A DNA stretch of 37,210 nt from Gammaproteobacteria bacterium (GCA_020845935.1 JADLEV010000005.1:1-37210); one strand, 5' to 3'. Counted from the stretch's first letter, positions 918 to 35,823 are shown. Translations and numbers: made by a program. Notes: generated by a model not told the origin, from the letters alone.

Positions 918-921
918 GGCA

Positions 922-1953
922 ATGTTGAGCACGATAGAACGAGCGATGCGCAAGCTGAGCGGAGAGCCGGCGGCGCCATCGGCACCACCGCCTGCGCCCA
1001 AAGCAGCGGTCGCGGAACGGCAATCGGCGCCGCCAGTGCCGAGCCGTGAACCCGAACACGCCGATATCCCCATCCGCGAAGCCGATCCCGTGGCGATTGC
1101 AGCAGCCGCGCCGGCGCCGTCCCCTGGGGGCGTGCGCACTGATGCCGGCCTTGCCGGCATGATGCGCGAGCCGAACGAAGTGGACCTCTGGATCGACATC
1201 GATCGCCTCGTGGCGAGGAACTGTCTGCGTCCAGGCGACACCTACAGTCAGATGGCCGAGGAGTTTCAACACATCAAGCGGCGGCTGCTCGGCAATATCG
1301 TGACCAATCAGCATCATCCTGGTCCGCCGCAGAACCTCATCATGGTGACCAGTTCGGTGCCGGGTGAAGGCAAGACGTTTACCAGCACCAACCTCGCGCT
1401 CAGTCTGGCGATGGAGATCGACCGGCGCGTGCTGCTGGTCGATACCGATATCGCCAAGTCGGACCTGACCCGCCTGTTCGGTGCGCATGGCAAGATTGGG
1501 CTGTTCGATGTGCTGGCCGGTTATGCGACGGTGCCGGAAGTCATTCTGCGGACGAACCTGGCGAAATTGTCGATGATTCCGTCCGGCACCGTGCGTGAAG
1601 CGGTGTCCGAGCGGTTGGCGAGTGATGCCATGCAAGCGCTGACGATGGAATTTGCCCGGCGGTATCCGGATCGAATTGTCATTTTCGATTGCCCGCCGGT
1701 GCTCGCGACGTCAGGCGCAGCGGCGCTGGCGCCATTCATTGGTCAGATCGTCATGGTCGTCGAGGCGTGGCGCACGCCACGGGCGACGATCAAGCATGCG
1801 TTGCAGATGCTGGAGCCGACGCGGGTCACGGGCATGGTGTTGAACAAGACCCGTGAAGTGCCGCAGGGACACGGTTACTACTACCAATATGGCTATGGTT
1901 ACGGCTATGGCTACGGGACGCCCCCGGCGCCGGCCGCGGCAAACCGCGAATGA
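922..1953 (+). CDS. XrtA-associated tyrosine autokinase (BY-kinase, CpsD/CapB-like)
   Basis: Walker A SSVPGEGKTFTSTNLA, Walker A' RVLLVDTDI, Walker B IVIFDCPP, Tyr-rich C-terminus YYYQYGYGYGYGYG. Confidence 0.92.
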   Translation: MLSTIERAMRKLSGEPAAPSAPPPAPKAAVAERQSAPPVPSREPEHADIPIREADPVAIAAAAPAPSPGGVRTDAGLAGMMREPNEVDLWIDIDRLVARNCLRPGDTYSQMAEEFQHIKRRLLGNIVTNQHHPGPPQNLIMVTSSVPGEGKTFTSTNLALSLAMEIDRRVLLVDTDIAKSDLTRLFGAHGKIGLFDVLAGYATVPEVILRTNLAKLSMIPSGTVREAVSERLASDAMQALTMEFARRYPDRIVIFDCPPVLATSGAAALAPFIGQIVMVVEAWRTPRATIKHALQMLEPTRVTGMVLNKTREVPQGHGYYYQYGYGYGYGYGTPPAPAAANRE

Positions 1954-1973
1954 AATCGGGACGACGTATCGTC

Positions 1974-3407
1974 ATGTCTGACTCCAGGCTCGCTTTGTCC
2001 GTATTCGCGACGCTGCTCGCCAGCGGCGTGGTGCATGCCGCCGATTGGCAAGTGCAGCCGCGCGTGACGATTGGCGGGACCTATACCGATAACGTCGGCC
2101 TCCAGGCCGGAGCCGCCAACAACGAATCGATCATCATGCAGGTGACGCCGGGTATCTCGGTCAGAGGCGAGGGCGCGCGGCTCTCGGCCAATCTCGATTA
2201 CAACCTGCAAGGCGTGGCATTTCTGGATGACATCGACCGCAGCCGGGTCAATCATCAACTGCAACTGTCATCGACGACGCAGTTGATTCCGGGGCATCTG
2301 TCGCTCGATATGGGTGCCGGAGCCTATCAGGCGTTGCTGGACAACGAACTGCCGTATGGCAATACCAATCTGAATATCAGCCGGAATCAGACCGATGTCG
2401 CGTACTTCCGCGCGCGGCCCTCGTATCGCCATCAATTCGGCAGTTTCGCCATCCTCGACGCGGGCTATGGCTACAGCCGCTCCTTTGTCCACGGCCGGCA
2501 AACCGGCGATCAGGGCGGGCAAGATGCGAATGTGTCGCTGTCGAGCGGCAGCGATTTCACCTGGCTGTCCTGGTCTCTGAACTATTCCTACCAGCGCAAC
2601 GAAGCGAATCGGTTCGGGCGCAACCGCAATTTCGAGATGGCGACCGCGCAAATCTCATTGGCACTGACCGATCGCGTGCGGCTGAATGGTTCCGCCGGCC
2701 GGGAGGTCAATTCGTTTCAGAGCAGTCGTCCGACCGGTGCCAAGACCATCTGGTCCGGAGGTTTGACCTGGGCGCCGAGCCGGCGCACGACGGTGTCGGC
2801 ATCGATCGGGGAACGGGCCTATGGCCGCAATTATTCGTTGAATGTGTCCCACCAGCGCCGGCGGGTGGCGGTATCGGTCCAATACGGCGAGGATTACCAG
2901 ACCTACCTCGGCATCCTGCAGCAGACGGTGCTGGTGCCGGTGCTCGACCAGTTCGGCAATCCGATCTTCGATCCGCTGCGTGGTGTCGCGATCCTGCTGC
3001 CGATCGATCTGCCGACCTTGACCGATGAGGTCTTCCTCAGCCGCCGCTGGAACGCCTCGTTGTCGTACAACCGGAAGCGCGACACGTTTTCCTTGTCCGC
3101 CTACCGCAACGATCGGGAACGCGAAACCTCGCTGATCCAGGACGTGGTGACGGGAGCAACCGCGACCTGGTCGCACAATGTCTCACGCGCGGTAACGACC
3201 AGGCTCGACGTGTCGGCACAGCACAGTGAATTCTCCGATCGGGCCGATGGCGATTATCTGCTGCACGTGTCGCCGAGTCTGTCGTATCGCTTTGGCCGCA
3301 GCCTGAGCGGCAGCCTCAGTTATCGGTATTACCGCCGGATCAGCGACGACGTCCGCCGTGACTATGTCGAGAATGCCGTGACCGGCACACTGACCTACCT
3401 TTTCTAG
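1974..3407 (+). CDS. PEP-CTERM/XrtA-system-associated outer membrane beta-barrel protein (TIGR03016-like)
   Basis: Signal peptide MSDSRLALSVFATLLASGVVHA, alternating beta-strand pattern, C-terminal aromatic (TGTLTYLF); ORF opens at 1950 (ATGA overlap with the kinase), internal ATG at 1974 gives a cleaner signal peptide. Confidence 0.85.
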   Translation: MSDSRLALSVFATLLASGVVHAADWQVQPRVTIGGTYTDNVGLQAGAANNESIIMQVTPGISVRGEGARLSANLDYNLQGVAFLDDIDRSRVNHQLQLSSTTQLIPGHLSLDMGAGAYQALLDNELPYGNTNLNISRNQTDVAYFRARPSYRHQFGSFAILDAGYGYSRSFVHGRQTGDQGGQDANVSLSSGSDFTWLSWSLNYSYQRNEANRFGRNRNFEMATAQISLALTDRVRLNGSAGREVNSFQSSRPTGAKTIWSGGLTWAPSRRTTVSASIGERAYGRNYSLNVSHQRRRVAVSVQYGEDYQTYLGILQQTVLVPVLDQFGNPIFDPLRGVAILLPIDLPTLTDEVFLSRRWNASLSYNRKRDTFSLSAYRNDRERETSLIQDVVTGATATWSHNVSRAVTTRLDVSAQHSEFSDRADGDYLLHVSPSLSYRFGRSLSGSLSYRYYRRISDDVRRDYVENAVTGTLTYLF

Positions 3408-3416
3408 CAGATCCGC

Positions 3417-4586
3417 ATGTACGAAGCCTTTTATGGGTTGCAGGCGAAGCCGTTCCAGCTCAATCCGGACCCGAGATTTTTCTATCGCAGCACCGGCCAC
3501 CAGCGCGCCATGGCCTATCTGCGCTACGGCTTGCAGCTCGGCCAGGGGTTCATTGTCGTCACCGGTGATGTCGGCACCGGCAAGACGATGCTGGTCAACA
3601 CGCTGTTCAAGGAAATCGCGGGCAAGGGCATCGCCGCGGCGAAAATCGTTTCGACCAATCTGCAGGAGCATGACCTGCTGCAACTGATCGCCAGTGCCTT
3701 CGATTTGCCGTTCGAAGGACAGTCCAAGGCGCAGTTGCTGAAGAACCTGGAGCTGTTCTTCCGCGCCTCGATGGAAGAGGGGCGGCGCGTGCTGCTGGTG
3801 GTCGACGAGGCCCAGAACCTGCCGCGCAGTTCGCTCGAAGAGCTGCGGATGCTGTCGAACTTCGACCACAACGGCCAGCCGCTGGCGCAAAGCTTCCTGC
3901 TTGGCCAGCGTGAATTTCGGTCAACAATGCGATCCCCCGGGCTGGAACAACTGCGGCAGCGCGTGATCGCCGCCTATCACCTGCGGCCACTGAACGACGT
4001 CGAAACGCGGGACTATGTGACACATCGCTTGCAGACCGTCGGCTGGCACAGCGATCCGAAGATCCACGACGACGTGTACGCCGGCGTCCATGCCTTTACG
4101 CGCGGCGTGCCACGGCGCATCAATACCTTGATGGATCGACTGCTGCTGAATTGCTTTCTCGACGAGCGGCATGAAATCGATCCGGATCTGCTGGCGAACG
4201 TCGTCACCGAGATCGAACTGGAACGAGGTGAAGCCGACGATGACCACTCTGGCGATGAGGAACCGGCGGAAACGCCCCCGCGACGACCGGCGGCCGCGAT
4301 AACCGGTGCCGCGGCCGCCGCACCGGTGGCGCCAGGCGACTCTGTAGAATTAGGCAAACTCGAGCAGCGTCTCGGTGCGATGCAACGGGCGGTTGATAGT
4401 ATTAGCCGGCGTCTGGAATTGCGTATCGATGAAACCGCCCCTTCCTACCGGCAGCCCCCTCCGTCAGCGATGCCCGGCCCCGCGCTGCAGGGGTCGAAGC
4501 AGATGCTCTGGCTCGCCGTGCTGTTGGCCGGCGTTGCCGTGCTGTCGATCTGTGCGACGGCGGCATTTTTCCTGCTTCGCTCCTGA
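3417..4586 (+). CDS. XrtA/PEP-CTERM-system-associated AAA ATPase (ExeA/GspA-like, TIGR03015-like)
   Basis: MYEAFYGLQAKPFQLNPDPRFFY N-terminus, Walker A GDVGTGKT, Walker B VLLVVDEAQNL, C-terminal TM. Confidence 0.9.
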   Translation: MYEAFYGLQAKPFQLNPDPRFFYRSTGHQRAMAYLRYGLQLGQGFIVVTGDVGTGKTMLVNTLFKEIAGKGIAAAKIVSTNLQEHDLLQLIASAFDLPFEGQSKAQLLKNLELFFRASMEEGRRVLLVVDEAQNLPRSSLEELRMLSNFDHNGQPLAQSFLLGQREFRSTMRSPGLEQLRQRVIAAYHLRPLNDVETRDYVTHRLQTVGWHSDPKIHDDVYAGVHAFTRGVPRRINTLMDRLLLNCFLDERHEIDPDLLANVVTEIELERGEADDDHSGDEEPAETPPRRPAAAITGAAAAAPVAPGDSVELGKLEQRLGAMQRAVDSISRRLELRIDETAPSYRQPPPSAMPGPALQGSKQMLWLAVLLAGVAVLSICATAAFFLLRS

Positions 4587-4609
4587 ATCTTCGGCCGGCG
4601 CGATCTGAC

Positions 4610-5497
4610 GTGACCGAGCCGCCGGTCCGCAACGCGATGACCGTGGACGTGGAGGATTACTTCCACGTCTCGGCGTTCGAGTCGCACATTCCCCGTGCCG
4701 CCTGGGATTCGTTGGATCGCCGCGTCGAGGCCAATACCGAGCTGCTGCTCGACTTGTTCGCCCAGGTTGGCTGCCAGGCGACGTTTTTCACGCTGGCCTG
4801 GGTCGCCAGGCGCCATCCGGCCCTGATCCGGCGCATTACCGCGGCCGGACATGAACTCGCGAGCCACGGCTGCGAGCACGTGCGCATCACGCAGTTCGAT
4901 CGGCGGGCGCTGCAAGCGGATCTCGGCGACAGCAAGAAGCTGCTGGAAGACCTGGGCGGCGTGGCCGTGCTCGGCTATCGCGCACCCAGCTTTTCGGTCA
5001 CGCGCGGCAACCTCTGGGCCCTGGCCGAGATTGCGGCGGCCGGTTATCGCTACAGTTCCAGCATCTATCCGGTGCGCCACGACCTGTATGGCATTCCGGA
5101 TGCGCCGCGGTTTCCATTCCTCGATCGTGCCTCCGGTCTGCTGGAAATCCCGATGACGACCGTTCGGCTGGGTGGCCGCAACCTGCCGATCGGCGGCGGT
5201 TTTTTCCGTTTCTATCCCTACGCGGCGTCGCGCTGGGCCTTCGCCCGGGTCAATCGGCTGGAACACCAGCCGGTGGTGTTCTACACGCACCCGTGGGAGT
5301 ACGACCCGGAGCAGCCGCGTCAGGACGGAGCCGGTTGGAAGGCGCGGACGCGGCATTATCTGAACCTCGACAAGACCACGCCACGATTGCGTCGGCTGTT
5401 GCGGGACTTTGCCTGGGATCGCATGGATCGTGTTTTCCTTGCAGCTGACGATAAATCGATTCCAGCCACACGCTACAGAAGCCACGCATGGAATTGA
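4610..5497 (+). CDS. Polysaccharide deacetylase, DUF3473 / XrtA-system family (TIGR03006-like)
   Basis: MTVDVEDYFHVSAFE, HGCEHVRI metal motif, GYRAPSFSVT; GTG start at 4610 (alternative ATG 4637). Confidence 0.92.
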   Translation: MTEPPVRNAMTVDVEDYFHVSAFESHIPRAAWDSLDRRVEANTELLLDLFAQVGCQATFFTLAWVARRHPALIRRITAAGHELASHGCEHVRITQFDRRALQADLGDSKKLLEDLGGVAVLGYRAPSFSVTRGNLWALAEIAAAGYRYSSSIYPVRHDLYGIPDAPRFPFLDRASGLLEIPMTTVRLGGRNLPIGGGFFRFYPYAASRWAFARVNRLEHQPVVFYTHPWEYDPEQPRQDGAGWKARTRHYLNLDKTTPRLRRLLRDFAWDRMDRVFLAADDKSIPATRYRSHAWN

Positions 5498-6516
5498 CGA
5501 TCTCCTCACCCGCGCCGATCGATCGCGCCGAATGGAACAGCTTCGTGCTGGCGCAGCCGCAGGGCACGCACTTTCACCGCGCCGAATGGGCCGACGTGAT
5601 CGAACGTGTCTTCGGCCATCGCTGTCATCATCTGGTCGCGCGCGCCGGCGGTGCGATCGCCGGTGTGCTGCCTTTGGTCGAGGTCCGCAGCCGACTGTTT
5701 GGCCACAGCCTCAGTTCGACGCCGTTCTGCGTCTATGGCGGCGCGATCGGCAGTGACGAAGCCATCCTTGCGCTCGAAGATGCCGCCGCGCGGCTCGCCG
5801 AAAAACTCGGTGTGTCGCATCTCGAATTGCGCAACCGCGACCGCGAACGGCCGGGCTGGCTGCGCAAGGATCTGTACGCGACCTTCCGCAAACCGCTTGC
5901 CGCGGATGATGACGCCAACCTGAATGCGATTCCGCGCAAGCAGCGGGCGATGGTGCGTAAAGGCATTGGCAATGATCTCTCCAGCGTGACCGAACGCACC
6001 ATCGACCAGTTCTTTCCGATCTATGCGAGCAGCGTGCGCGATCTCGGCACGCCGGTATTTCCGCGCCGGTATTTCCGCGCGTTGCTCGAGGCCTTTGGCG
6101 ACGATTGTGATGTCCTGACCGTGCGGGATCGCGACGGCCAGCCGATCGCGAGCGTGCTGAGCTTCTATTTCCGGGACGAGGTGCTGCCGTACTATGCCGG
6201 CGGCCTGCACGCGGCGCGCGAACTGAAGGGCTACGACTTCATGTACTGGGAACTGATGCGCGGTGCGACCGCGCGCGGTTGCCGCTGGTTCGATTACGGC
6301 CGCAGCAAGCAGGGCACCGGTGCCTATTCGTTCAAGAAGAACTGGGGTTTCGAGCCGGCGCCACTGCCGTATCAATATCACCTGGTGAAGGCGCAGGCGC
6401 TGCCGGACGTCAGCCCGGCCAATCCGAAGTACCGGCTGTTCATCGCCGCGTGGCAGCGCCTGCCGTTGCCGGTGGCGAACCGGATCGGACCGCTGCTGTC
6501 GCGGAGTCTCGGCTGA
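5488..6516 (+). CDS. FemAB-like XrtA/PEP-CTERM-associated protein (TIGR03019-like)
   Basis: FemAB/GNAT C-terminal region YYAGGLHAARELKGYDFMYWELMRGATARGCRWFDYGRSKQGTGAYSFKKNWGFEP; overlaps the upstream gene by 10 bp. Confidence 0.88.
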   Translation: MELTISSPAPIDRAEWNSFVLAQPQGTHFHRAEWADVIERVFGHRCHHLVARAGGAIAGVLPLVEVRSRLFGHSLSSTPFCVYGGAIGSDEAILALEDAAARLAEKLGVSHLELRNRDRERPGWLRKDLYATFRKPLAADDDANLNAIPRKQRAMVRKGIGNDLSSVTERTIDQFFPIYASSVRDLGTPVFPRRYFRALLEAFGDDCDVLTVRDRDGQPIASVLSFYFRDEVLPYYAGGLHAARELKGYDFMYWELMRGATARGCRWFDYGRSKQGTGAYSFKKNWGFEPAPLPYQYHLVKAQALPDVSPANPKYRLFIAAWQRLPLPVANRIGPLLSRSLG

Positions 6517-7781
6517 TGGCGCCGGCACTGGCCCAGCCGATGACCTGCGAGTCCACTGCGTCCGATCCCGGAACGCGACCGGACCTGTTGTTCCTGGCGC
6601 ACCGGATCCCGTTCCCGCCGAACAAGGGCGACAAGATCCGTTCGTTCCATCTGCTGCGCCATCTCGCAGGTCGGTATCGCGTGCACCTCGGCGCATTCAT
6701 CGATGTCCCGGAGGATTGGCAACACGCGGCGGCCTTGCGCGAATGGTGTGTCGACGTGCATCTCGAACCGCTGCGGCCCTGGTCGAGCCGGATCCGTGGC
6801 GTGACCGGGCTGCTGCGCGGCGAGGCGCTCGGCCTGCCGTACTACCGGCGCGCCTCGATGCAGGCTTGGGTGCGGCGCAAGGTGTTTGCTGAAGGTACGC
6901 GGCGCGCGGTCATCTATTCCTCGACGATGGCGCAGTACCTGGATGGCCCGGAGTTTGGCCCGGTCTGCCGGGTGCTCGACATGGTCGATGTCGATTCGCA
7001 GAAGTGGACGGCTTATGCGGCGCGCAAACCCTGGCCGGCTTCCTGGCTTTACCGAAGGGAAGGCGAGCGGTTGTTGCGCTTCGAGCGCGCCATGGCCGCC
7101 CGCTTCGATCACACGCTGTTCGTGTCCGCCGCGGAGGCAGCGCTGTTCCGGCAGCTCGCGCCGGAGTCGGCGGCCCGCGTGTCGCATTACGACAATGGCG
7201 TCGATGCCGGATACTTCAATCCGGAGCACAACTATCCGTCGCCGTATGCGGATGGCGATCTGCCACTGGTGTTCACCGGAGCGATGGACTATTGGGCGAA
7301 CGTCGATGCGGTGGTCTGGTTTGCGCGCGAGGTGTTTCCTCGAGTGTTGCAGGCGGTCCCGGCGGCGCGGTTCGTGATCGTCGGTGGCCGTCCCGCGGCC
7401 GCGGTGCAGACGCTGGCCCGGCTTCCCGGCGTTACCGTGACCGGTGCGATCCGGGACATCCGGCCGTATGTCGCGCACGCGATCGCCGCGGTCGCGCCGA
7501 TGCGGATCGCACGCGGTTTGCAGAACAAGGTGTTGGAAGCGATGGCGATGGCCAAGCCCGTCATCGCGACGCCGGCGGCGATGGAAGGGATCAGCGCGGG
7601 GCCGGAATTCGCGGCCCTGGTGGCGGATGCGCCGGCGGCGCTCGCGACCATCGCCATCGAGGTGCTGCGCGGTGGTCTCGGCGCCACCCTGGGAGCACTC
7701 GGCCGAAACCATGTCATGCGTTGCCATGACTGGACGCGGACCGTGCAGCCGTTGACCGATCTGCTGGAACGGGGAACCTGA
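6516..7781 (+). CDS. GT4-type glycosyltransferase, XrtA-system (TIGR03087-like)
   Basis: LFLAHRIPFPPNKGDKIRSFHLLRHLA N-terminus; C-terminal ARGLQNKVLEAMAMAKPVIATPAAMEGI; ATG at 6516 overlaps the upstream TGA (ORF track start 6279 is too early). Confidence 0.88.
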   Translation: MAPALAQPMTCESTASDPGTRPDLLFLAHRIPFPPNKGDKIRSFHLLRHLAGRYRVHLGAFIDVPEDWQHAAALREWCVDVHLEPLRPWSSRIRGVTGLLRGEALGLPYYRRASMQAWVRRKVFAEGTRRAVIYSSTMAQYLDGPEFGPVCRVLDMVDVDSQKWTAYAARKPWPASWLYRREGERLLRFERAMAARFDHTLFVSAAEAALFRQLAPESAARVSHYDNGVDAGYFNPEHNYPSPYADGDLPLVFTGAMDYWANVDAVVWFAREVFPRVLQAVPAARFVIVGGRPAAAVQTLARLPGVTVTGAIRDIRPYVAHAIAAVAPMRIARGLQNKVLEAMAMAKPVIATPAAMEGISAGPEFAALVADAPAALATIAIEVLRGGLGATLGALGRNHVMRCHDWTRTVQPLTDLLERGT

Positions 7782-7782
7782 G

Positions 7783-9351
7783 ATGGAGGCGGACGCCACG
7801 TTGCCGTTGTCGCGTGTGGCGAGTGCCGATCCGGCCGGCATGCGTTTGCGCCTGCTGATCCTGGCGCTGCTTGGCGCGGCGCTGCTGCTGCTGTATCGCG
7901 ACAGCTGGTTAGCGATGGCGCATATCTGGTGGGTTTCGGATACCTTCGCGCACGGCATGTTCATCCTGCCGCTGAGTGGTTGGCTGGTCTACCGGCTGCG
8001 GCAGGAACTGCAGCAGACTCCGGTCACGACCGGCTGGCTGGCATTGCCGTTGCTGGTGCTGCTTGGCTTTGGTTGGGCGCTGGCGCGGTTCGCCGATGTG
8101 CTGGTGATTCAGCAATTCGCCGTGATTGCGATGATTCCGCTGCTGGTGCTGCTGGTGTACGGGCAACGACTGACCGCGGCAATCGCCTTTCCGCTCGGCT
8201 TCCTGTTGATGGCCGTTCCGGTCGGGGAAGGCCTGATCCCTTATCTGATCGACTGGACCGCCGATTTCGTTGTCTTTGCGCTCCGCCTGACGGGCCTGCC
8301 GGTCTTTCGCGAGGGCAACGATTTCACGATCCCGAGCGGCAAATGGTCCGTCGTCACCGGCTGCAGTGGCTTGCGCTATCTGATGGCGACTCTCACGATC
8401 GCGCTGTTGTATGCCTATCTCAGTTACCGCGCGACCTGGCGCCGGGTCGTGTTCGTGCTGGCGGGCATCGCTGTCGCCATCGTCGGCAATTGGCTGCGCG
8501 CCTACGGCATCGTGATGATCGCGCACCTGAGCGGCATGAAGCTCGCCCTTGGCGTCGATCATTTCATCTACGGCTGGGTCTTTTTTGGCATCCTGATCTT
8601 CGCGGTGATGTGGTTGGGTGCCGCGTGGCGCGAACCGGAACCGGAGCCCGCGGTCACGCCGCTGCTGCCGCCGCTGCCGCCGCGGCAGCAGCGGCCAACG
8701 GGGACATGGGCCATGTCCGCGCTGGGGGCAGGCCTGGTCGTGTTGATCCTGGCGCCGATGCTGGTGGGGGTCGCCGAGCAGCGGGCCGCGGCCTTCGCCG
8801 CACATCGGCTGCGCTCCGATGCGCCGGCCGGCTGGACGCTGACCGAGGACTGGAATGTCCGTTGGCGGCCGGAACACTTCGGTGCTGCGCAGGTGCTCGA
8901 CGAGTGGTTCAGCGATGGCGCGCAACGAGTCGGCGTGTTCCTCGCCTGGTACCCGGCGCAGCGGCAGGGCGCAGAGCTGATCAATGCACGCAACCGGCTG
9001 CTGTATGAAAAGGACCGGGACTGGCGCGAGTTGCGTGGTCGCGGGGGCGTGGTGCCGTGGGGCGCGATGGCGTTCCCGTATCGCGAATCGCACATCGAGG
9101 CACGCGCCGACGACGTCGGGTTGCTCGTCTGGCACGGCTGGTGGGTCAGCGGCCGGTTCACGACCAATCCCTATCTGGCGAAGCTTTACGAAGCGCTCGG
9201 CGCGTTGCTCGGGCAAGGACGCCGCGGCGCCTGGGTCGTGCTCTACACGCCGGACGATGAAGCGGCGCGCACGCGGCTCACCGCCTTCGCCAACGCCTAT
9301 GCCGCCACGTTCGAGCGAATGATCCGCGACACCGCGCCGGCGGTCCCGTGA
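7783..9351 (+). CDS. xrtA: Exosortase A with C-terminal EpsI-like (DUF3485) domain
   Basis: Polytopic N-terminal half with candidate catalytic triad Cys194 (TGCSGLRYL), Arg239 (GNWLRAYGI), His260 (GVDHFIYGWVFF); soluble C-terminal half beginning around EQRAAAFAAHRLR matches EpsI organisation. Confidence 0.93.
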   Translation: MEADATLPLSRVASADPAGMRLRLLILALLGAALLLLYRDSWLAMAHIWWVSDTFAHGMFILPLSGWLVYRLRQELQQTPVTTGWLALPLLVLLGFGWALARFADVLVIQQFAVIAMIPLLVLLVYGQRLTAAIAFPLGFLLMAVPVGEGLIPYLIDWTADFVVFALRLTGLPVFREGNDFTIPSGKWSVVTGCSGLRYLMATLTIALLYAYLSYRATWRRVVFVLAGIAVAIVGNWLRAYGIVMIAHLSGMKLALGVDHFIYGWVFFGILIFAVMWLGAAWREPEPEPAVTPLLPPLPPRQQRPTGTWAMSALGAGLVVLILAPMLVGVAEQRAAAFAAHRLRSDAPAGWTLTEDWNVRWRPEHFGAAQVLDEWFSDGAQRVGVFLAWYPAQRQGAELINARNRLLYEKDRDWRELRGRGGVVPWGAMAFPYRESHIEARADDVGLLVWHGWWVSGRFTTNPYLAKLYEALGALLGQGRRGAWVVLYTPDDEAARTRLTAFANAYAATFERMIRDTAPAVP

Positions 9352-9363
9352 TCAGAGGTTGAC

Positions 9364-10506
9364 ATGGCCAAGTCGGGCGCGGCGCCGCTGATCGCGCATG
9401 TCATTCACCGGCTCGATTTTGGCGGCCTGGAGAATGGTCTCGTGAATCTGATCAATCTCCTGCCGGCCGAAGAGTTTCGTCATGCGATCGTCGCGCTGAC
9501 CACGGCAAGCGACTTCCGCAACCGGTTGCGCCCGGGGATCGAGGTGATCGAGCTGAACCGGCGCGAGGGTCCGGACTGGGATCTCTATCCGCGGCTGTAT
9601 CGGACCTTTCGCCGCTTGCGCCCGGCGATCGCCCATACCCGCAATCTCGCGACGCTCGAAGCGCAGGTGCCTGCCTGGCTCGCCGGTGTGCGCGGACGGA
9701 TCCACGGCGAGCACGGTCGCGACGTGCACGACCTCGACAACCAGGCACGCAAGTACCGCTGGCTGCGCCGCGCGTTCGTGCCGCTGGTGCAGCGGTACAT
9801 CCCGTTGTCGCAGGAACTGGAACGCTATCTCGGTGCGGAGGTCGGCGTGCCGGCGCGCAAGATCCGGCGGATCTGCAATGGTGTCGACACCGCGCGCTTC
9901 GCTCCGGCAGAGAACGCACGTGCCTGGCTCGATGCCGCGCCATTCACCACCTCTGGGCGGATCGTGATCGGCAGCCTCGGCCGGATGGCTGCGGTCAAGG
10001 ATCCGCTGCTTCTGGCCGATGCTTTCATCCGTCTGGTCGCGCAGGTGCCGGACGGCCGCGCGCGGCTGGCGCTGGTGATGGCCGGAGACGGCGAACTGCG
10101 GCCACAGGTTGCGGCGCGGCTGGCTGAGGCAGGGCTCGCTTCGATCTGCTGGATACCCGGCAGCCGGGACGATACGCCCGAGCTGCTGCGCGCGCTCGAC
10201 ATTTTCGTTTTGCCGTCGCTGGCTGAAGGGATCTCGAACACGATCCTCGAAGCGATGGCGAGCGGCTTGCCGGTGATCGCGACCGCGGTCGGCGGCAATA
10301 GCGAACTGGTACAGGAGGGCCGCACGGGATCCCTGGTGCCGCGCGCCGATCCCGAAACCCTGGCGGCGGCGCTGCTGCGTTACGTCGTCGACCCCGAATT
10401 GCGACGCGCGCATGGCCTGGCGGGGCGGGAACGGGCGGTTGCCGAATTCAGTCTGGAGAACATGGTGGCGAACTACGCAAAGGTCTATCGCGAGGTGCTC
10501 GGCTGA
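9364..10506 (+). CDS. GT4-type glycosyltransferase, XrtA-system (TIGR03088-like)
   Basis: IAHVIHRLDFGGLENGLVNLINLLP start, GTD donor-site text FVLPSLAEGISNTILEAMASGLPVIATAVGGNSELV. Confidence 0.9.
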   Translation: MAKSGAAPLIAHVIHRLDFGGLENGLVNLINLLPAEEFRHAIVALTTASDFRNRLRPGIEVIELNRREGPDWDLYPRLYRTFRRLRPAIAHTRNLATLEAQVPAWLAGVRGRIHGEHGRDVHDLDNQARKYRWLRRAFVPLVQRYIPLSQELERYLGAEVGVPARKIRRICNGVDTARFAPAENARAWLDAAPFTTSGRIVIGSLGRMAAVKDPLLLADAFIRLVAQVPDGRARLALVMAGDGELRPQVAARLAEAGLASICWIPGSRDDTPELLRALDIFVLPSLAEGISNTILEAMASGLPVIATAVGGNSELVQEGRTGSLVPRADPETLAAALLRYVVDPELRRAHGLAGRERAVAEFSLENMVANYAKVYREVLG

Positions 10507-12395
10507 TGTGCGGCATAGGTGGCCTGTTCGATCCACGCGCGGCCTCGACCATCTCGCGGGAACCGCTCGATCGGATCAATCGCGTGCAGCATCATCGCGG
10601 CCCGGATGAAGCCGGCATCTGGCTCGGCCCGGGCGTCGGCTTTGCGCACACACGGCTGTCGATCATCGATCGCGCGGAAGGGCAGCAGCCGATGTCGACC
10701 GCGGATGGCACGATCACGATCGCGTTCAACGGCGAGATCTACAACTTCCGTTCGCTGCGCGAGGAACTGGAGCGCCGCGGCCATGGATTCCGCACGCATT
10801 CCGACACCGAAGTGATCCTCGAGGCCTACCGAGCCTTCGGCGACGCCTGCGTGCCGAAGCTGCGCGGCATGTTCGACTTCGCGATCTGGGATACCGCGCG
10901 CCAGCATCTGCTGCTGGCGCGCGACCGGGTCGGCATCAAGCCATTGTTCTACGGTTTCACCAGGGCCGGGATGCTGGTGTTCGGCTCGGAACTGAAGGCG
11001 CTGCTGGTGCACGAGGATCTGCCGCGTGTGCTCGACAAGCGCGCGGTCGAGGATTACTTCACCTTCGGCTATGTGCCGGAACCGCGGACGATCTTCGAAC
11101 ATGCGGCGAAGCTGCCGCCGGGCTTTACGTTGACGCTGAACCGCGGCGATCGCGAGCCGGTCATTCGCCAGTACTGGGATGTGCCGACCGATCGCGAGCA
11201 ATTGCTCGACGAGGCGTCCGCGCGCACACAACTGATCGAGCGGCTTGGTGATGCGGTCGACAGCCATCTGATGTCCGAAGTGCCGCTCGGGGCATTTCTG
11301 TCCGGCGGGGTCGATTCGAGCAGCGTCGTCGCGATGATGGCGCGTGGCGGCGAGACCGTCACGACCTGCTCGATCGCCTTCAAGGAGAAGAGTTACAACG
11401 AAACCGAATTCGCGCGCCAGGTCGCGGCGCGCTATCACACCAGGCATCACGAGGACCTGGTCGATACCGATGACTTCGGCCTGGTCGATGCGCTCGGTGG
11501 TCTGTACGACGAGCCGTACGCCGACAGTTCAGCGATCCCGACCTATCGGGTCTGCGAGCTCGCGCGCCGGCATGTCACCGTCGCTCTCTCGGGCGACGGT
11601 GGCGATGAACTCTTTGCCGGGTATCGGCGCTATCGCTGGCACATGCACGAAGAACGCTGGCGCGCCCGATTGCCCGGTTTCATTCGCAAGCCGGTGTTCG
11701 GTACGCTCGGCCAGCTCTATCCGAAACTCGATTGGGCGCCGCGCTTCCTGCGTGCGAAGACGACGTTTCAGGCGCTGGCGCGCGACAGCGTCGATGCCTA
11801 CCGGCACAGCGTCGCGATCCTGCGCGATGCCGAGCGGGAACGCCTGTTCAGCACGGGCCTCAAGCGCGATCTCGCGGGATATTCCTCGGCTGAAGTCTTC
11901 GCCCGCCATGCCGCGAACTTCCGCGGCGTCGATCCGCTGAAGCTGATCCAGTATCTCGACTTCAAGACCTATCTGGTTGGCGACATCCTGACCAAGGTCG
12001 ATCGCGCCAGCATGGCGCACGCACTCGAAGTCCGCGTGCCGATCCTTGATCACGAACTGATCGAATGGGCAATGCCGCTGCCCTCGTCGCTCAAGCTCAC
12101 CGCAGGCGAGGGCAAGCACCTGCTGAAGAAAGCGATGGAGCCACATCTGCCGCACGATGTGTTGTATCGGACCAAGATGGGCTTTGGCGTGCCGCTGTCC
12201 GAATGGTTCCGTGGTCCGTTGCGGCAACGCGTGCGCGACGGCGTACTCAGCCAGGCTATGCGCGACTCCGGGCTGTTCGACATGCGTTACGTCGAAATGC
12301 TGGTCGATCAGCACCAGAGCGGCCAGAGCGAATTCAGCGCACCGCTGTGGAGTCTCCTGATGTTCGATTCCTTCCTCAGGCGTTCGCTCGCGTGA
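10506..12395 (+). CDS. Asparagine-synthase-like amidotransferase, XrtA-system (TIGR03108-like)
   Basis: MCGIGGLFD N-terminal nucleophile class II GATase; SGGVDSSSV pyrophosphatase loop; VALSGDGGDELFAGY. Confidence 0.93.
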   Translation: MCGIGGLFDPRAASTISREPLDRINRVQHHRGPDEAGIWLGPGVGFAHTRLSIIDRAEGQQPMSTADGTITIAFNGEIYNFRSLREELERRGHGFRTHSDTEVILEAYRAFGDACVPKLRGMFDFAIWDTARQHLLLARDRVGIKPLFYGFTRAGMLVFGSELKALLVHEDLPRVLDKRAVEDYFTFGYVPEPRTIFEHAAKLPPGFTLTLNRGDREPVIRQYWDVPTDREQLLDEASARTQLIERLGDAVDSHLMSEVPLGAFLSGGVDSSSVVAMMARGGETVTTCSIAFKEKSYNETEFARQVAARYHTRHHEDLVDTDDFGLVDALGGLYDEPYADSSAIPTYRVCELARRHVTVALSGDGGDELFAGYRRYRWHMHEERWRARLPGFIRKPVFGTLGQLYPKLDWAPRFLRAKTTFQALARDSVDAYRHSVAILRDAERERLFSTGLKRDLAGYSSAEVFARHAANFRGVDPLKLIQYLDFKTYLVGDILTKVDRASMAHALEVRVPILDHELIEWAMPLPSSLKLTAGEGKHLLKKAMEPHLPHDVLYRTKMGFGVPLSEWFRGPLRQRVRDGVLSQAMRDSGLFDMRYVEMLVDQHQSGQSEFSAPLWSLLMFDSFLRRSLA

Positions 12396-13600
12396 AGATT
12401 CTGCACGTGCTCGACCACTCGATCCCGCTGGCGAGCGGTTACACGTTTCGCACGCGCGCGATCCTGCGCGAGCAGCGCCGGATCGGCTGGGAGACGTTTC
12501 ATCTGACCGGGCCGAAGCAGGGTTCGCCGAGTGATACCGAAGAGACCGTCGATGGTCTCGTCTTTCAGCGCACGGCCCGGCGGCCAACATGGACCGATCG
12601 ATTGCCGGGGCTGGAGCACTGGAACGTCGTGCGCGCGATCGAACGCCGGCTCGAACCGCTGGCGCGGCAACTGCGGCCGGATCTGCTGCATGCGCACTCG
12701 CCGGCGCTGAACGGGCTCGCGGCCCTGCGTGTCGCGCGTCGCCTCAAGCTGCCGCTGGTCTATGAGGTCCGCGCGTTCTGGGAAGATGCCGCAGTTGATC
12801 ACGGGACCGCCAGCGAAGGCGGCCTGCGCTATCGCGCCACGCGCGCACTCGAAACGCATGTGCTGCGCCACGCCGACGCGGTCACGACCATCTGTGATGG
12901 ATTGCGCCAGGACATCGTCGAGCGCGGCATTCCATTGCCCCGCGTGACGGTAATCCCGAACGCCGTCGATTTGCAGGAGCTCGGCACGCCGGGAGCGCCC
13001 GACACCGAACTCGCGACTCGCCTCGGCATCACCGGCAAGCGCGTGCTCGGCTTCATTGGTTCGTTCTACACCTATGAAGGACTCACGCTAGCAATCGAAG
13101 CGCTGCCGAGGATCCGGGACCAACACGATGCAGTCCTGCTGCTGGTCGGAGGGGGGCCGCAGGAAGCGGACCTGAAGCGGCTGGTGGCCGCGCGGGGTCT
13201 GAGCGATCACGTCGTCTTCACCGGCCGCGTGCCGCATGCCGAAGTCGCACGGTACTACAGCCTCGTCGAAGTGCTGCTGTACCCGCGCCTGCCGATGCGC
13301 CTGACCGAACTCGTGACGCCCTTGAAACCGCTCGAAGCGATGGCGCAGCGCAAGCTGTTCGTCGCTTCGGATGTCGGTGGCCATCGCGAACTGATCCGCG
13401 ATCGCGAGACCGGCATCCTGTTTCGCAGCGGCGACGCCGCCGCACTCGCCGCCGCGGTCGATGACCTGCTGTCCGCGCCGGAGATCGCCGAGCGCCTGCG
13501 CAGCAACGGTGCGCGTTTCGTTGCCGAGCAACGCAATTGGCCGGTCAGCGTGGCGCGATATCGTCCGGTGTATGCTGCGGCGGTAGGACGAGCGGTGTGA
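12392..13600 (+). CDS. GT4-type glycosyltransferase, exosortase A-associated (TIGR04063-like)
   Basis: GTG start at 12392 overlapping the upstream TGA: VKILHVLDHSIPLASGYTFRTRAILREQRR; LTELVTPLKPLEAMAQRKLFVASDVGGHRELI. ORF track start 12065 lies inside the upstream gene. Confidence 0.9.
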   Translation: MKILHVLDHSIPLASGYTFRTRAILREQRRIGWETFHLTGPKQGSPSDTEETVDGLVFQRTARRPTWTDRLPGLEHWNVVRAIERRLEPLARQLRPDLLHAHSPALNGLAALRVARRLKLPLVYEVRAFWEDAAVDHGTASEGGLRYRATRALETHVLRHADAVTTICDGLRQDIVERGIPLPRVTVIPNAVDLQELGTPGAPDTELATRLGITGKRVLGFIGSFYTYEGLTLAIEALPRIRDQHDAVLLLVGGGPQEADLKRLVAARGLSDHVVFTGRVPHAEVARYYSLVEVLLYPRLPMRLTELVTPLKPLEAMAQRKLFVASDVGGHRELIRDRETGILFRSGDAAALAAAVDDLLSAPEIAERLRSNGARFVAEQRNWPVSVARYRPVYAAAVGRAV

Positions 13601-30056: not shown

Positions 30057-30098
30057 TGGTTTCACTTGACCAGCCAATTGGCGCGGTGCGCGGTCACG

Positions 30099-31038: not shown

Positions 31039-31243
31039 CGGGTTCTCCAACGGGAAATATCGTGTGATCTTAATGCCTGACGCAGGTATTGATTGGTTCC
31101 GCGTTTGTTACGCAATGTGGAAGCATGGATCGGTATTCGACAAAATGGGGTAGTGTCTGCCGACACGACCGGTAGCAACGGATGGAAAAGATGGGTCGGC
31201 TGGGACGCAAGCCACACTGGACGTTGTGAGGGCGAGGTGAAGG
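31039..31243. promoter_or_regulatory. Divergent intergenic/promoter region
   Basis: About 205 bp between divergent starts (31038 - and 31244 +), visibly AT-richer at 31050-31150; no confident -35/-10 identified. Confidence 0.5.
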
Positions 31244-32392
31244 ATGGTCAGGTACGAGTACTTTACGCGACGCCAGGCATTGGAGTGGCAAAGCGGTACG
31301 GCGATCGATACCGCCGATCCGTTGACGAATGTCCACCCGGACTACTTCGCCTACTGCGACCCGGATCAGCTCGTCGGTGTCGGTGCGTGGGACGGTGCAC
31401 GGATGATTGGAAGGAACCTGTTCTTCCATTGCCCGATCTCGGTCCATGGTGTCGCCGTGGAGTGCGTGGTCTCGAATAACCTGTTCGTGGCTCCCGAGTA
31501 TCGACCCAAAGGGATTGGGACCTATCTCAAGATGCACGTGCTGAAACTCGGCTATCCGCAGATATCCTCCGGCGTGTCGCCGTCGATGCAGAAGGTGTAC
31601 GACGCATGGAGTGCGTATCGGCGTGTCGACGCGTCGATCACGTACTCGGTCGCGGCAGATGCGTTTGGTGTGTTGCGCGTGTCTCGCATCGCGGCGGAAC
31701 AACATCGCCTGGGTGCCGATCGCGCCGGACGTGTGGGTTTGGCGCGCCTTGCGCTCGCGCGAGCCCGTGCATCGCTGCGTCTGTTGGCCGCCGGTCCCCG
31801 GACGCGGGTGTTGGATGCAAACACCGCAGTCGGTGCGATTGACGACGTCTTGCGAAGTGCGCATCGGGTCATCCAGGTTCCGTGGAATCGGCAGGTGCTG
31901 TGCGATGCCTTGCATGGCCGGCACGCCCGGATGCATGCATGGGTGATCGAGCTTCCCGGTGGCCGGCAACAGTTCCTCAGTGCCTATCGCAAGCAGCGAC
32001 TGGTGCGCACCTTCGGCACGCGCGAGATGATGAAAACGGAGCTTCTGTTCAACGAGGCTTGGCCTCCCGTACAGGAAGATGACGTCGCGCTGACCTGCAT
32101 CGCGTTCGTGGTACGTCAAGCTCGAAGCCTCGGTGCCAGCGTGGTCCAGGTGGACGCGATGACACCGGCATTGGCGCGGATCTGCGAGCGCTTCGGCTTC
32201 GATACTTTTTATCGCAAGCGCGTGTACATCGCGCCGAACACCCGAGACAAAGATTTGTCGTCCGTTCTGTCCGACCCGGCCAACTGGTGGTGCCGTGCGA
32301 TCAACGAGAACGAGTTCGAGGAGATTGCGCTGCCTCGCGCCGGCTACACGGACTTCGCGGCTTTGATTCCTGCGATGAGCCTGTCGGCTTAG
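31244..32392 (+). CDS. GNAT-like protein, possibly tandem GNAT/FemAB-like
   Basis: N-terminal half NNLFVAPEYRPKGIGTYLKMHVLKLGYPQI; C-terminal half FVVRQARSLGASVVQVDAMTPALARICERFGFDTFYRK; purine-rich RBS before ATG. Confidence 0.65.
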   Translation: MVRYEYFTRRQALEWQSGTAIDTADPLTNVHPDYFAYCDPDQLVGVGAWDGARMIGRNLFFHCPISVHGVAVECVVSNNLFVAPEYRPKGIGTYLKMHVLKLGYPQISSGVSPSMQKVYDAWSAYRRVDASITYSVAADAFGVLRVSRIAAEQHRLGADRAGRVGLARLALARARASLRLLAAGPRTRVLDANTAVGAIDDVLRSAHRVIQVPWNRQVLCDALHGRHARMHAWVIELPGGRQQFLSAYRKQRLVRTFGTREMMKTELLFNEAWPPVQEDDVALTCIAFVVRQARSLGASVVQVDAMTPALARICERFGFDTFYRKRVYIAPNTRDKDLSSVLSDPANWWCRAINENEFEEIALPRAGYTDFAALIPAMSLSA

Positions 32393-33820
32393 ATGAGCGA
32401 CGCTTTCATCCATGCGTTGCGATGCCCTCAGGGGGAGAGGCCGGCCCTTGCCGACGATACCGATCGGGTGACGCATACACAGCTGCACGTAGCGGCACGG
32501 CGGGCGGCCGGCAGGATTCGCGAGGAATTCGGCTCCGGCGGCTACGTCCTGCTTGCCGCCGAGCCTTCGGTTCGGTTCATCATCACCTTGCTCGGCACCA
32601 TGTATAGCGGCAACACACCGGTACCGATCGACCCGGTGACGCCCGCGCCAACGCTTGAGGCAATTCGAGCGCAGTGCCGGGCATCAAGGCTCCTGGAGCC
32701 TCTCGCCGCGGGCGATTGTGAGCATGCGCCAAGCCGCGATGCGCCGGATGCGCAGTTGCCGGCGCTGGTGCTGTTCACCTCCGGCACTACGGGATCACCG
32801 AAAGGCGTCCTTATGACGCACCAGAATCTGCTTCGGTCCTGCGACGTCATCGCCGGGTACCTGGGCTATCACGAGTTTCCGACAAGCGTGTCGGTGCTGC
32901 CGCTGCACTACAGCTACGGCTTGATTTCCCAGGTGCTGAGCCAACTGTATGTAGGCGGCTATGTCCGGATCATGGCCGGCCTGCGCAACCCCCTGGTCTT
33001 CGCGAAGACCGTCGAAGGCGAGCGTATCGAGACATTTTGTGGCGTGCCATCGACATTTCTGGCGCTCACGAAATTCAATCGGCTGGCTCCGATCCGGCTA
33101 CCTGCCTTGCGCGTCGTGTGTTCGGCGGGGGCCGCATTCGAGGCGAGCGTGTACGATACGCTCAAGACGATCTGTCCCAACGCCACGGTGTTCAACAACT
33201 ACGGCATGACCGAAGCCTGCCCGAGGCTGTCGTATGTCTCCGATCGCGATGAGCATTTCTTTGACGGCTCGGTGGGCCGTCCGATTGCCGGTGTCGAGGC
33301 GATCGTCATCGACGGGCAGACCGACAACCGCCTGCCGGACAATGTGCGCGGGGTGCTCGCGGTTCGGGGCCCGAACATCAGCCCGGGATATCTGAACGAT
33401 GCGGTGGCCACACGCACCGCATTCACTGCGGACGGGTTTCTGCGTACTGGGGACATCGCGCATATCGACGCGGGTTATATCTATTTGCACGGTCGGGCCG
33501 ACGACATCTTCAATGTCGGTGGTGAGAAAGTCGCGCCGCTGGAAATCGAAACGGCGTTGAACCAGATGCCGGAGATTGAATGCTCCGCGGTGGCGGGGCT
33601 GCAGGACGCGGCCAGGGGCCGGGTCCCGGTGGCATTTCTCAAATTGGTCCAGCCGATTGCCGTGCACCGGATCACCGCGGCTCTCGCGCAGGTGCTGTCG
33701 CCGAACAAGATGCCGGTCGCTTACTACGAGGTGTCGTCGTTTCCTCAGACCGGCAACGGCAAGATCCAGCGACGGCGGCTCGAACCGCACTCTAATTTCG
33801 TGATTCGTCGAATCGAATAG
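32393..33820 (+). CDS. AMP-forming acyl/aminoacyl ligase (ANL superfamily)
   Basis: LVLFTSGTTGSPKGVLMTH, VFNNYGMTEACP, FLRTGDIAHIDAGYIYLHGRADDIFNVGGEKVAPLEIE, GNGKIQRR. Confidence 0.93.
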   Translation: MSDAFIHALRCPQGERPALADDTDRVTHTQLHVAARRAAGRIREEFGSGGYVLLAAEPSVRFIITLLGTMYSGNTPVPIDPVTPAPTLEAIRAQCRASRLLEPLAAGDCEHAPSRDAPDAQLPALVLFTSGTTGSPKGVLMTHQNLLRSCDVIAGYLGYHEFPTSVSVLPLHYSYGLISQVLSQLYVGGYVRIMAGLRNPLVFAKTVEGERIETFCGVPSTFLALTKFNRLAPIRLPALRVVCSAGAAFEASVYDTLKTICPNATVFNNYGMTEACPRLSYVSDRDEHFFDGSVGRPIAGVEAIVIDGQTDNRLPDNVRGVLAVRGPNISPGYLNDAVATRTAFTADGFLRTGDIAHIDAGYIYLHGRADDIFNVGGEKVAPLEIETALNQMPEIECSAVAGLQDAARGRVPVAFLKLVQPIAVHRITAALAQVLSPNKMPVAYYEVSSFPQTGNGKIQRRRLEPHSNFVIRRIE

Positions 33821-33829
33821 GAGCACCTT

Positions 33830-34078
33830 GTGACCGAACCAATTGCCGAGACAATCAAAAACATCGTCGCGGATCTGTTTTCCTGTTCGCGGATGGAGCT
33901 GAACGAATCCAGCGGTCCTGGGGACGTTCCTCGCTGGGATTCATTGGGGCACATCCAGCTCCTCGAAGCGGTCTCGGATCGATTCAAGGTGGCTATTCCA
34001 ATTGAGACCGCGCTTGAAGCGCAATCGATAGGCGATCTGGCGCGGATCATTGCGAAGGCACGGTCCGAAAAGGGTTGA
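33830..34078 (+). CDS. Acyl carrier protein
   Basis: 82 aa, WDSLGHIQLLEAV with predicted phosphopantetheine Ser38; GTG start after GGAG. Confidence 0.9.
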   Translation: MTEPIAETIKNIVADLFSCSRMELNESSGPGDVPRWDSLGHIQLLEAVSDRFKVAIPIETALEAQSIGDLARIIAKARSEKG

Positions 34079-34108
34079 AGGAATCGAGGTTGCACAGAAT
34101 GTAGTTAT

Positions 34109-34144
34109 GCCGAAACCCGCGCGACAGCGCTGGGTCTTTTCGGC
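34109..34144 (+). other. Intergenic RNA hairpin candidate
   Basis: GCCGAAA(34109-34115)/TTTCGGC(34138-34144), CCC/GGG, GCGC/GCGC around GACA loop; no following T tract. Confidence 0.5.
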
Positions 34145-34177
34145 TTCCACTGAACGATGCATCAGGGAGGTACGACG

Positions 34178-35083
34178 ATGGAAAGGAGTTTCGTTGGTCG
34201 CGTCAGTTTCCGGCTCGATGATCCGTCGCCGACGAGCGATCACGCGCTCGAGGCGGAGATCCTGCGGCGATTTCAAAGGTACGGCATCCCCCTAACCGTC
34301 GCCGTCGTTCCGTTCGGCAAGCCGGAACCGGTACGCACGCTGGTGCTGGACGATGTGCGGCACATCATCGAGGCTCGGCAATCCGGAGACATCGAGATCG
34401 CACTGCATGGCTACCGGCATCTGCAACGAACGCGGATAGGTGGGTCGCCGTCGGAATTCTCAGGAGTGCCGCTCGCCGAGCAGACCGATATGCTGCGTCG
34501 CGGCCGGGATGTGCTCCAACGCATCTTCGGCGAGGGGGTTACCGGCTTCGTGCCGCCATGGAACACGTTCGACGGCAACACACTCAAGGCCGTGGCCGCC
34601 GCCGGTATGGAATATCTGGGTGCGGGGTTCGGTGCGGCTCCATCGCTACGCCAGCCCGCAGCACCGCGCATCGTGCCAAAGACCTGCACGCTGAACCAAC
34701 GGGAATACGAGCGTGCATGCAACGAAGCGCGGCGCTTCGCCCACGGCCAGCCGTGGATCGTGTTCGTGTTCCATCCGGACAACTTCGTCGAGTATCGGGA
34801 TCCCTCCGCCGAAGGTGAGCCGGCGCCGTGGCTCACTCTGTCGTTGCTGGAGACCATGCTGGAGCAACTGCGCGCGGAGCCAGATATCGTCGCGACGACC
34901 TTGCAGGCCGCGGTGCACGCTGATGGAGTCCATGGCAGGCTCTGGAATCCTGCGGAACTACTCTGGGTCGGGCGTCTGGTCCCGCGCGCAGGATGGCGAA
35001 TACCAACACGTATCGTCTTCCGCCGATCGCGGCTGCACGGGCTTCGTTGTCTCGCGTACCGGGTACCCGGCAACCGGGACTGA
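34178..35083 (+). CDS. DUF2334-like polysaccharide deacetylase
   Basis: VSFRLDDPSPTSD, IEIALHGYRHLQRT, GFVPPWNTFDGNTLKAV; GGGAGG before ATG at 34178. Confidence 0.82.
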   Translation: MERSFVGRVSFRLDDPSPTSDHALEAEILRRFQRYGIPLTVAVVPFGKPEPVRTLVLDDVRHIIEARQSGDIEIALHGYRHLQRTRIGGSPSEFSGVPLAEQTDMLRRGRDVLQRIFGEGVTGFVPPWNTFDGNTLKAVAAAGMEYLGAGFGAAPSLRQPAAPRIVPKTCTLNQREYERACNEARRFAHGQPWIVFVFHPDNFVEYRDPSAEGEPAPWLTLSLLETMLEQLRAEPDIVATTLQAAVHADGVHGRLWNPAELLWVGRLVPRAGWRIPTRIVFRRSRLHGLRCLAYRVPGNRD

Positions 35084-35118: not shown

Positions 35119-35823
35119 GTGATCATTTCCCACAGGTATCGATTTGTGTTCATAAAGACCCGGAAGACGGCCGGTTCCAGCCTTGAAATAGCGTTATCCA
35201 AATACTGTGGTCCGCGTGACATCATTTCGTCGATCAGCGAAGAGGAAGATCGAGAACGCACAGCGTTGGGCTACCGTGGGCCACAGCACGACACGATTCC
35301 GTTGCGCCATCACACGCGACATGAGTTGCTCCGGATGCTGCAGTCCGGTCGGTTGGACCGGCGGGTATATCACCGGCACATGAAAGCGAAAGACGTCCGG
35401 AGCCGTGTCGCCGGGCACGTGTGGGCAAACTACTTCAAGTTTTGTATCGAGCGGAATCCATGGGACAAAGCGATTTCGCTGTATTACTGGCGCACCCGCA
35501 ATCAACGGGAACGACCGCCATTGATCGACTACTTGCAGTCAGAAGAGTCGAAGGATTTGTCGAACTGGGATATTTACACGCAGAATGATCGCGTCCTCGT
35601 GGACCATGTCGCCAGATACGAGAATCTCGAGGCAGAGTTGCGAGCGATTGCGGCACGACTCGGCATACCGGGCGACCTGGCCGCCGATTTGCGCGGTATC
35701 AACGCCAAGGGCGGGGTTCGTGTGGACCGTAGACGCTATCAGGAGGTCATCGGGACCGATGAGCGGCAAGTCATCGCTCGCATCTGCGCAAACGAAATAA
35801 CGCAGTTCGGTTACAGCTTCTAG
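35119..35823 (+). CDS. Sulfotransferase family 2-like protein
   Basis: FVFIKTRKTAGSSLEIALSKY PAPS-type motif; FCIERNPWDKAISLYYW. Confidence 0.82.
   Translation: MIISHRYRFVFIKTRKTAGSSLEIALSKYCGPRDIISSISEEEDRERTALGYRGPQHDTIPLRHHTRHELLRMLQSGRLDRRVYHRHMKAKDVRSRVAGHVWANYFKFCIERNPWDKAISLYYWRTRNQRERPPLIDYLQSEESKDLSNWDIYTQNDRVLVDHVARYENLEAELRAIAARLGIPGDLAADLRGINAKGGVRVDRRRYQEVIGTDERQVIARICANEITQFGYSF

Follow-up and report, generated by a model that had tools for sequence, protein, structure and literature searches.

We describe a four-gene cassette at positions 31244-35083 of a 37,210-nucleotide stretch of DNA from a Gammaproteobacteria bacterium (GCA_020845935.1, JADLEV010000005.1:1-37210; the whole stretch is called the window below). 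It encodes a GNAT-like protein, an ANL adenylate-forming ligase, an acyl carrier protein (ACP) and a deacetylase, and lies downstream of the core of a canonical XrtA/PEP-CTERM exopolysaccharide locus (6-13600). The reading that we prefer, with a probability of about one-half, is that the ligase, its own ACP and the GNAT-like protein of this cassette serve to acylate the polysaccharide that the surrounding XrtA locus produces. The basis in hand consists of the gene order, the intact motifs of the ligase and ACP, a distant homology of the GNAT-like protein with tandem-GNAT proteins, and the recurrence of the ligase, ACP and GNAT genes (the trio) in polysaccharide loci.

In the proposed route, the ligase would adenylate a carboxylic acid, i.e. 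a fatty acid, a hydroxy acid or another non-α-amino acid, and would load it on to the phosphopantetheine of its own ACP. From there, the acyl group would be moved by the tandem-GNAT to an amino group, the acceptor most likely being an amino sugar of the repeat unit or of its precursor, and the deacetylase may expose this amine by removal of an N-acetyl group. Such a sequence of steps would follow that of the NodB deacetylase, the NodA N-acyltransferase and the NodF carrier, with an adenylating ligase replacing the dedicated ketosynthase. Precedents exist for both central steps, as AasR loads only its dedicated AcpR and neither CoA nor the housekeeping ACP (PMC9386255), and NodA acylates a deacetylated sugar with a fatty acid carried by an ACP (PMC5080398).

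The ligase and its carrier protein

All four genes are on the plus strand. The GNAT-like protein (382 residues, 31244..32392) is a probable tandem-GNAT N-acyltransferase and is followed by the predicted acid:ACP ligase (475 residues, 32393..33820; PF00501 and PF13193), the ACP (82 residues, 33830..34078, GTG start; PF00550), in which the phosphopantetheine serine lies in WDSLGH, and the DUF2334/CE4-like deacetylase (34178..35083; PF10096 and PF01522). The ATG of the ligase directly abuts the TAG stop codon of the GNAT gene (0 bp), and 9 bp separate the ligase from the ACP. An initial annotation had described these four open reading frames (ORFs) from the same DNA, and we recovered them at the coordinates it gave, with both of the short gaps as it had claimed; the codon-position GC of all four is normal for coding genes. 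Its statement that polyketide synthase (PKS) or non-ribosomal peptide synthetase (NRPS) domains and an MBOAT protein are absent also stood, as no PKS/ketosynthase, condensation or MBOAT match was found among the window ORFs scanned.

The ligase scored 209 bits with AMP-binding (PF00501) and 38 bits with AMP-binding_C (PF13193), and its P-loop TSGTTGSPKG, A5 motif NNYGMTE, hinge GRADD and A10 lysine (K457) are intact. It has 47-50% identity with ligases from an Acidobacteriota metagenome-assembled genome (MAG; L006, 50%), a Pirellulales (Planctomycetota) MAG (L007, 47%) and a further member of the same phylum as L006 (L017); the first two came from a pattern scan with one genome per species and the third was added by profile search. 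This family is rare, with three matches in 690 genomes of the two phyla of these relatives, both query genomes counted, no other match in 399 genomes of the window's own phylum and none in viral contigs. A search of 115 relatives returned one match with 34% identity (L009), which lies between glycosyltransferases on a short contig where no ACP was seen. We built a tree from the window family, same-genome paralogues, E. coli FadD, EntE and EntF, and AasR, in which the ligases of the window, L006, L007 and L017 formed one clade with a support of 100/100; the tree has long branches, and our reliance on it is limited to this clade. E. coli FadD fell outside it, and the grouping with fatty-acyl-CoA ligases that the initial annotation had named beforehand as counting against its proposal was thus not observed.

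The A4 region of this ligase family reads LPLHYSYG, where EntF and LgrA carry FD. Because the A4 aspartate of amino-acid-activating domains is replaced here, an α-amino acid is an unlikely substrate on sequence grounds. The initial annotation had likened the ligase and ACP to DltA and DltC, with transfer of an aminoacyl group as one of its options, and the pairing of a free-standing adenylating ligase with a small carrier does resemble that system, as does a weak match of the ACP profile to D-alanyl carrier protein structures. However, the residue replaced is the one that holds the α-amino group in NRPS domains, the DltA model TIGR01734 gave 143 bits with the L006 relative, where 560 would be needed, and was outside the top 25 of the window ligase, and no DltB-type MBOAT was present among the window ORFs scanned. 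We therefore disfavour the analogy, and aminoacyl transfer of this kind seems very improbable. The best PDB match of the ligase profile was the NRPS protein LgrA; the amino acid reading that this match had offered was dropped, as the A4 aspartate is missing.

The ACP scored 26.8 bits with PF00550 (cut-off 20.8) and has 39-46% identity (BLASTP) with the ACPs of L006, L007 and L017, GPGD and WDSLGH being invariant. Among the best matches of the ACP profile was PDB 2lml, with a score of only 31.6 bits, which we take to be a specialized ACP of the GmACP3 type with a WDSLxH/N motif and a role in lipopolysaccharide; the window ACP has this motif in common with it.

The GNAT-like protein and the deacetylase

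The GNAT-like protein carries a motif A, VAPEYRPKGIGTYL, at residues 82-95, but direct searches placed it poorly: its match to PF13508 was weak and below the cut-off (20.8 bits; cut-off 27), no NCBIfam model matched at an E-value of 0.01, and a BLASTP comparison with the L006 and L007 GNATs was not significant. A profile of the GNATs of the three relatives matched it weakly (E 0.0019). With a five-member tandem-GNAT profile, made from these three and two Azospirillum proteins, the match reached 32.4 bits (E 9.6e-9), part of which a general GNAT might share. As a control, the best of 3,000 shuffles gave an E-value of 0.011, and the window GNAT also ranked ahead of every non-member ORF compared. 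The match consists of two collinear stretches, which take in motif A (RPKGIG) as well as the C-terminal half, and E-values of 0.016 and 1.1e-4 were obtained for the two halves. These data suggest that the window protein belongs to the tandem-GNAT family of the related cassettes, as a distant member and not as an orthologue.

A single-sequence AlphaFold model of the window GNAT was discarded (pLDDT 33). A model of the L007 GNAT, built from three sequences, was of low confidence (pLDDT 49, pTM 0.47) and was used solely as a hint of a tandem-GNAT fold; its best structural matches were tandem GNATs, including glucosamine N-acetyltransferase, mycothiol synthase and N-myristoyltransferase.

The deacetylase was identified as a DUF2334 protein in the initial annotation, and this assignment holds, with 58.8 bits for PF10096 (cut-off 26), 30.8 bits for PF01522 and the motifs RLDDP, HGYRH and FVFHPD in the translation. 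The start placed at 34157, from which the ORF is open (308 residues), does not hold as well; the likely start is the ATG at 34178, behind GGGAGG, which widens the gap to the ACP. A stem-loop in this gap is of unremarkable stability (z -1.4). The next co-directional gene, a sulfotransferase (35119..35823, plus strand; PF03567, 28 bits), starts 35 bp after the deacetylase gene and may be co-transcribed with the cassette, in which its role is putative.

Relatives in other phyla and competing explanations

The gene order Fe-ADH, ligase, LuxE, LuxC, ACP, SDR and tandem-GNAT is common to L006, L007 and L017, the SDR resembling 3-oxoacyl-ACP reductases. A 4′-phosphopantetheinyl transferase gene lies just upstream of the L006 operon, which also adjoins a PrsT-like protein; the L017 set adjoins an exosortase and a PrsT TPR lipoprotein, both above a family cut-off, and the L007 set lies among genes for a UDP-sugar dehydrogenase, glycosyltransferases and a FemAB protein. 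Two observations on the flanks of these operons are recorded here in their own right. Directly upstream of the Fe-ADH gene of L007, the protein encoded at 7584-8696 has CE4-like motifs (TVDTEEE, HLHPW, RAGRYG and MMLHSS) and no Pfam match even at an E-value of 1, and a putative right-handed β-helix protein adjoins both acidobacterial cassettes on the opposite strand (L006 6635-7993, L017 6898-8238).

Separate searches with the L007 GNAT and the window ligase both led to Azospirillum plasmid loci, the two matches in strain B510 being approx. 3 kb apart. The annotated ones are exopolysaccharide loci and encode an O-antigen ligase, one GT2 and two GT4 glycosyltransferases, a polysaccharide deacetylase, ACP, ligase, asnB, nadE and GNAT, with the part from deacetylase to GNAT at 5628-13083 in L022 and 5499-13083 in L023. 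A deacetylase is thus next to the trio here also, though from a different CE4 branch. As the Azospirillum ligase is of another lineage (31% identity with the window ligase), inheritance with one ligase clade does not by itself account for the pairing of an ACP and a ligase with this family of GNATs. A Mesorhizobium locus (L025) has the order asnB-ACP-ligase-nadE, and the glutamine-dependent asnB/nadE pair of the Azospirillum and Mesorhizobium loci suggests an amidated acyl-ACP.

Each of the five relatives examined has the trio in the company of genes for glycosyltransferases, enzymes of nucleotide-sugar metabolism or an exosortase system. The three genes therefore appear to belong together, as the initial annotation had proposed, since their relatives recur side by side in Acidobacteriota, Planctomycetota and the polysaccharide loci of Azospirillum; the adverse outcome that it had named, a ligase and ACP mainly beside unrelated biosynthetic genes, did not occur in these neighbourhoods. 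This recurrence, together with the 0 bp gap between the GNAT and ligase genes, also makes it improbable that the GNAT works on its own, as an acetyl- or acyltransferase with a CoA donor, while the ligase and ACP have their place in general lipid metabolism, even though most GNATs use acetyl-CoA and the Pfam matches of the window protein are weak GNAT matches.

The cassette could instead produce a secreted small molecule, i.e. an N-acyl amino acid or amine. N-acyl amino acid synthase genes of the FeeM type, which use an acyl-ACP donor, occur near PEP-CTERM/exosortase systems (PMC7293339), and a tandem-GNAT fold would suit any small amine acceptor. However, the lack of an NCBIfam match places the window GNAT in no curated N-acyl amino acid synthase family, and the consistent polysaccharide or exosortase context of the trio, with a deacetylase adjoining it in Azospirillum, also speaks against a small-molecule product, which we consider unlikely.

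Much the same standing is given to a reductive pathway of the LuxE/LuxC type, in which the acyl thioester would be reduced or trimmed to a sugar substituent and the window copy would be partial or decayed. The closest ligase relatives always adjoin LuxE, LuxC, SDR and Fe-ADH genes, and similar sets occur in the flagellin glycosylation islands of Aeromonas and enterobacteria (PMC7874193, PMC4875605). In the window, however, all of the ORFs are intact with a normal codon structure, no LuxE, LuxC or SDR gene is adjacent to the cassette, and the Azospirillum trio likewise lacks LuxE and LuxC. Neither LuxE nor LuxC was found in the source assembly, a 2.16 Mb draft that is 62.5% complete and in which absences are weak evidence; the same small weight applies to our failure to find a phosphopantetheinyl transferase of the 4PPT_N kind there.

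Acylation of the locus polysaccharide, as preferred above, has several points to its disadvantage. The link of the GNAT to the cassette family consists of approx. 170 aligned residues, and no close relative of this protein was found in 473 genomes (144 relatives and 329 phylum genomes), plasmids or IMG/VR. The deacetylase is probably more loosely linked to the trio than the first coordinates suggest, because with its start at 34178 it lies approx. 99 bp after the ACP, and the window DUF2334 protein and the Azospirillum deacetylase belong to different families, the latter being nearer to the protein encoded at 29253-30077 of the window. The LuxE, LuxC, SDR and Fe-ADH genes of the relatives are missing from the window cassette, and this, with the failure to find LuxE and LuxC in the incomplete assembly, means that part of the pathway may have been lost or unassembled. 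A broader proposal, which we put forward tentatively and hold to be less probable than the acylation itself, is that ligase, dedicated ACP and tandem-GNAT form a mobile module that has spread to three phyla or more and renders exopolysaccharides amphiphilic by N-acylating them; LuxE, LuxC, SDR and ADH would tailor the acyl group in some copies, and the window would hold the minimal form.

Genomic setting and comparison with known systems

The core at 6..13600 (plus strand) was defined by NCBIfam matches, most of them above cut-off, and comprises genes for a chain length protein, tyrosine kinase, deacetylase, FemAB protein, XrtA glycosyltransferases, exosortase A and an amidotransferase. Past it lie genes for an O-antigen-ligase-type protein, a flippase, several GT2 proteins and several sulfotransferases. 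The four sulfotransferase-family genes (13537-14430, 16861-18156, 25380-26405 and 35119-35823), together with those of an NKWYS capsular-synthesis protein (30154-31050) and a sulfatase-fold protein (22410-24662), suggest that the window polysaccharide may be heavily sulfated. Other acyl-related genes are an acyltransferase-3 gene (19227-20462) and that of a PaaK-like adenylating enzyme (14427-15821), which lies between a sulfotransferase and the O-antigen-ligase-type gene, is without an ACP of its own and is a possible second acyl activator in the locus. The window also encodes a second polysaccharide deacetylase (29253-30077) and, on the minus strand at 35852-37048, a large protein whose sole match is a sub-threshold one to GH57.

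Among known systems, the Nod factor pathway has an analogous logic in that it combines a deacetylase, a dedicated ACP and an N-acyltransferase that depends on an ACP, with the NodE ketosynthase in the place of the window ligase; the cassette did not match the NodA, NodB or NodF families, GNAT and deacetylase being checked at an E-value of 0.01. The AasR/AcpR pair of rhodobacterial sphingolipid synthesis (PMC9386255) is alike in gene pairing, an adenylating ligase with a dedicated ACP, although AasR of E. coli B has 24% identity with the window ligase and lies elsewhere in the tree, and the window ORFs that were scanned showed no gene for serine palmitoyltransferase. The exosortase A-associated ligase TIGR03098 is also an AMP-forming ligase of XrtA loci, but the window ligase scored 164.8 bits with this model, below the cut-off of 592.35.

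The closest parallel is with flagellin glycosylation islands. Genes for LuxE, LuxC, an ACP, a 3-oxoacyl-ACP reductase (FabG) and an AMP-dependent synthetase or CoA ligase occur in those of Aeromonas (group II; PMC7874193) and of Enterobacteriaceae (PMC4875605), and a lipo-sugar product has been proposed for them. The ACP and ligase are of the kind found in the window, LuxE, LuxC and SDR are those of its nearest relatives, and the setting is again a surface-glycan locus. The window differs, in a comparison with the islands as described, by having no LuxE, LuxC or SDR and by having a tandem-GNAT and a deacetylase beside an XrtA locus. Its ligase and ACP are nonetheless homologous with the LuxE/LuxC-adjacent ones of L006, L007 and L017, and, judged by the kind of carrier and ligase, the window cassette is a variant of the LuxE/LuxC/ACP/ligase glycan sets already noted. 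Acyl transfer from a carrier protein to a sugar is established in the case of Nod factors and of lipid A; work on exopolysaccharides and flagellin glycans has gone no further than noting a gene set and guessing at a lipo-sugar. The present comparison names a candidate transferase, the tandem-GNAT that travels with the ligase and carrier, and it points to Azospirillum species as cultured hosts of the module that would allow a test of the idea. That the trio recurs in three phyla, each time in a polysaccharide locus, suggests a route of sugar acylation about which little is known.

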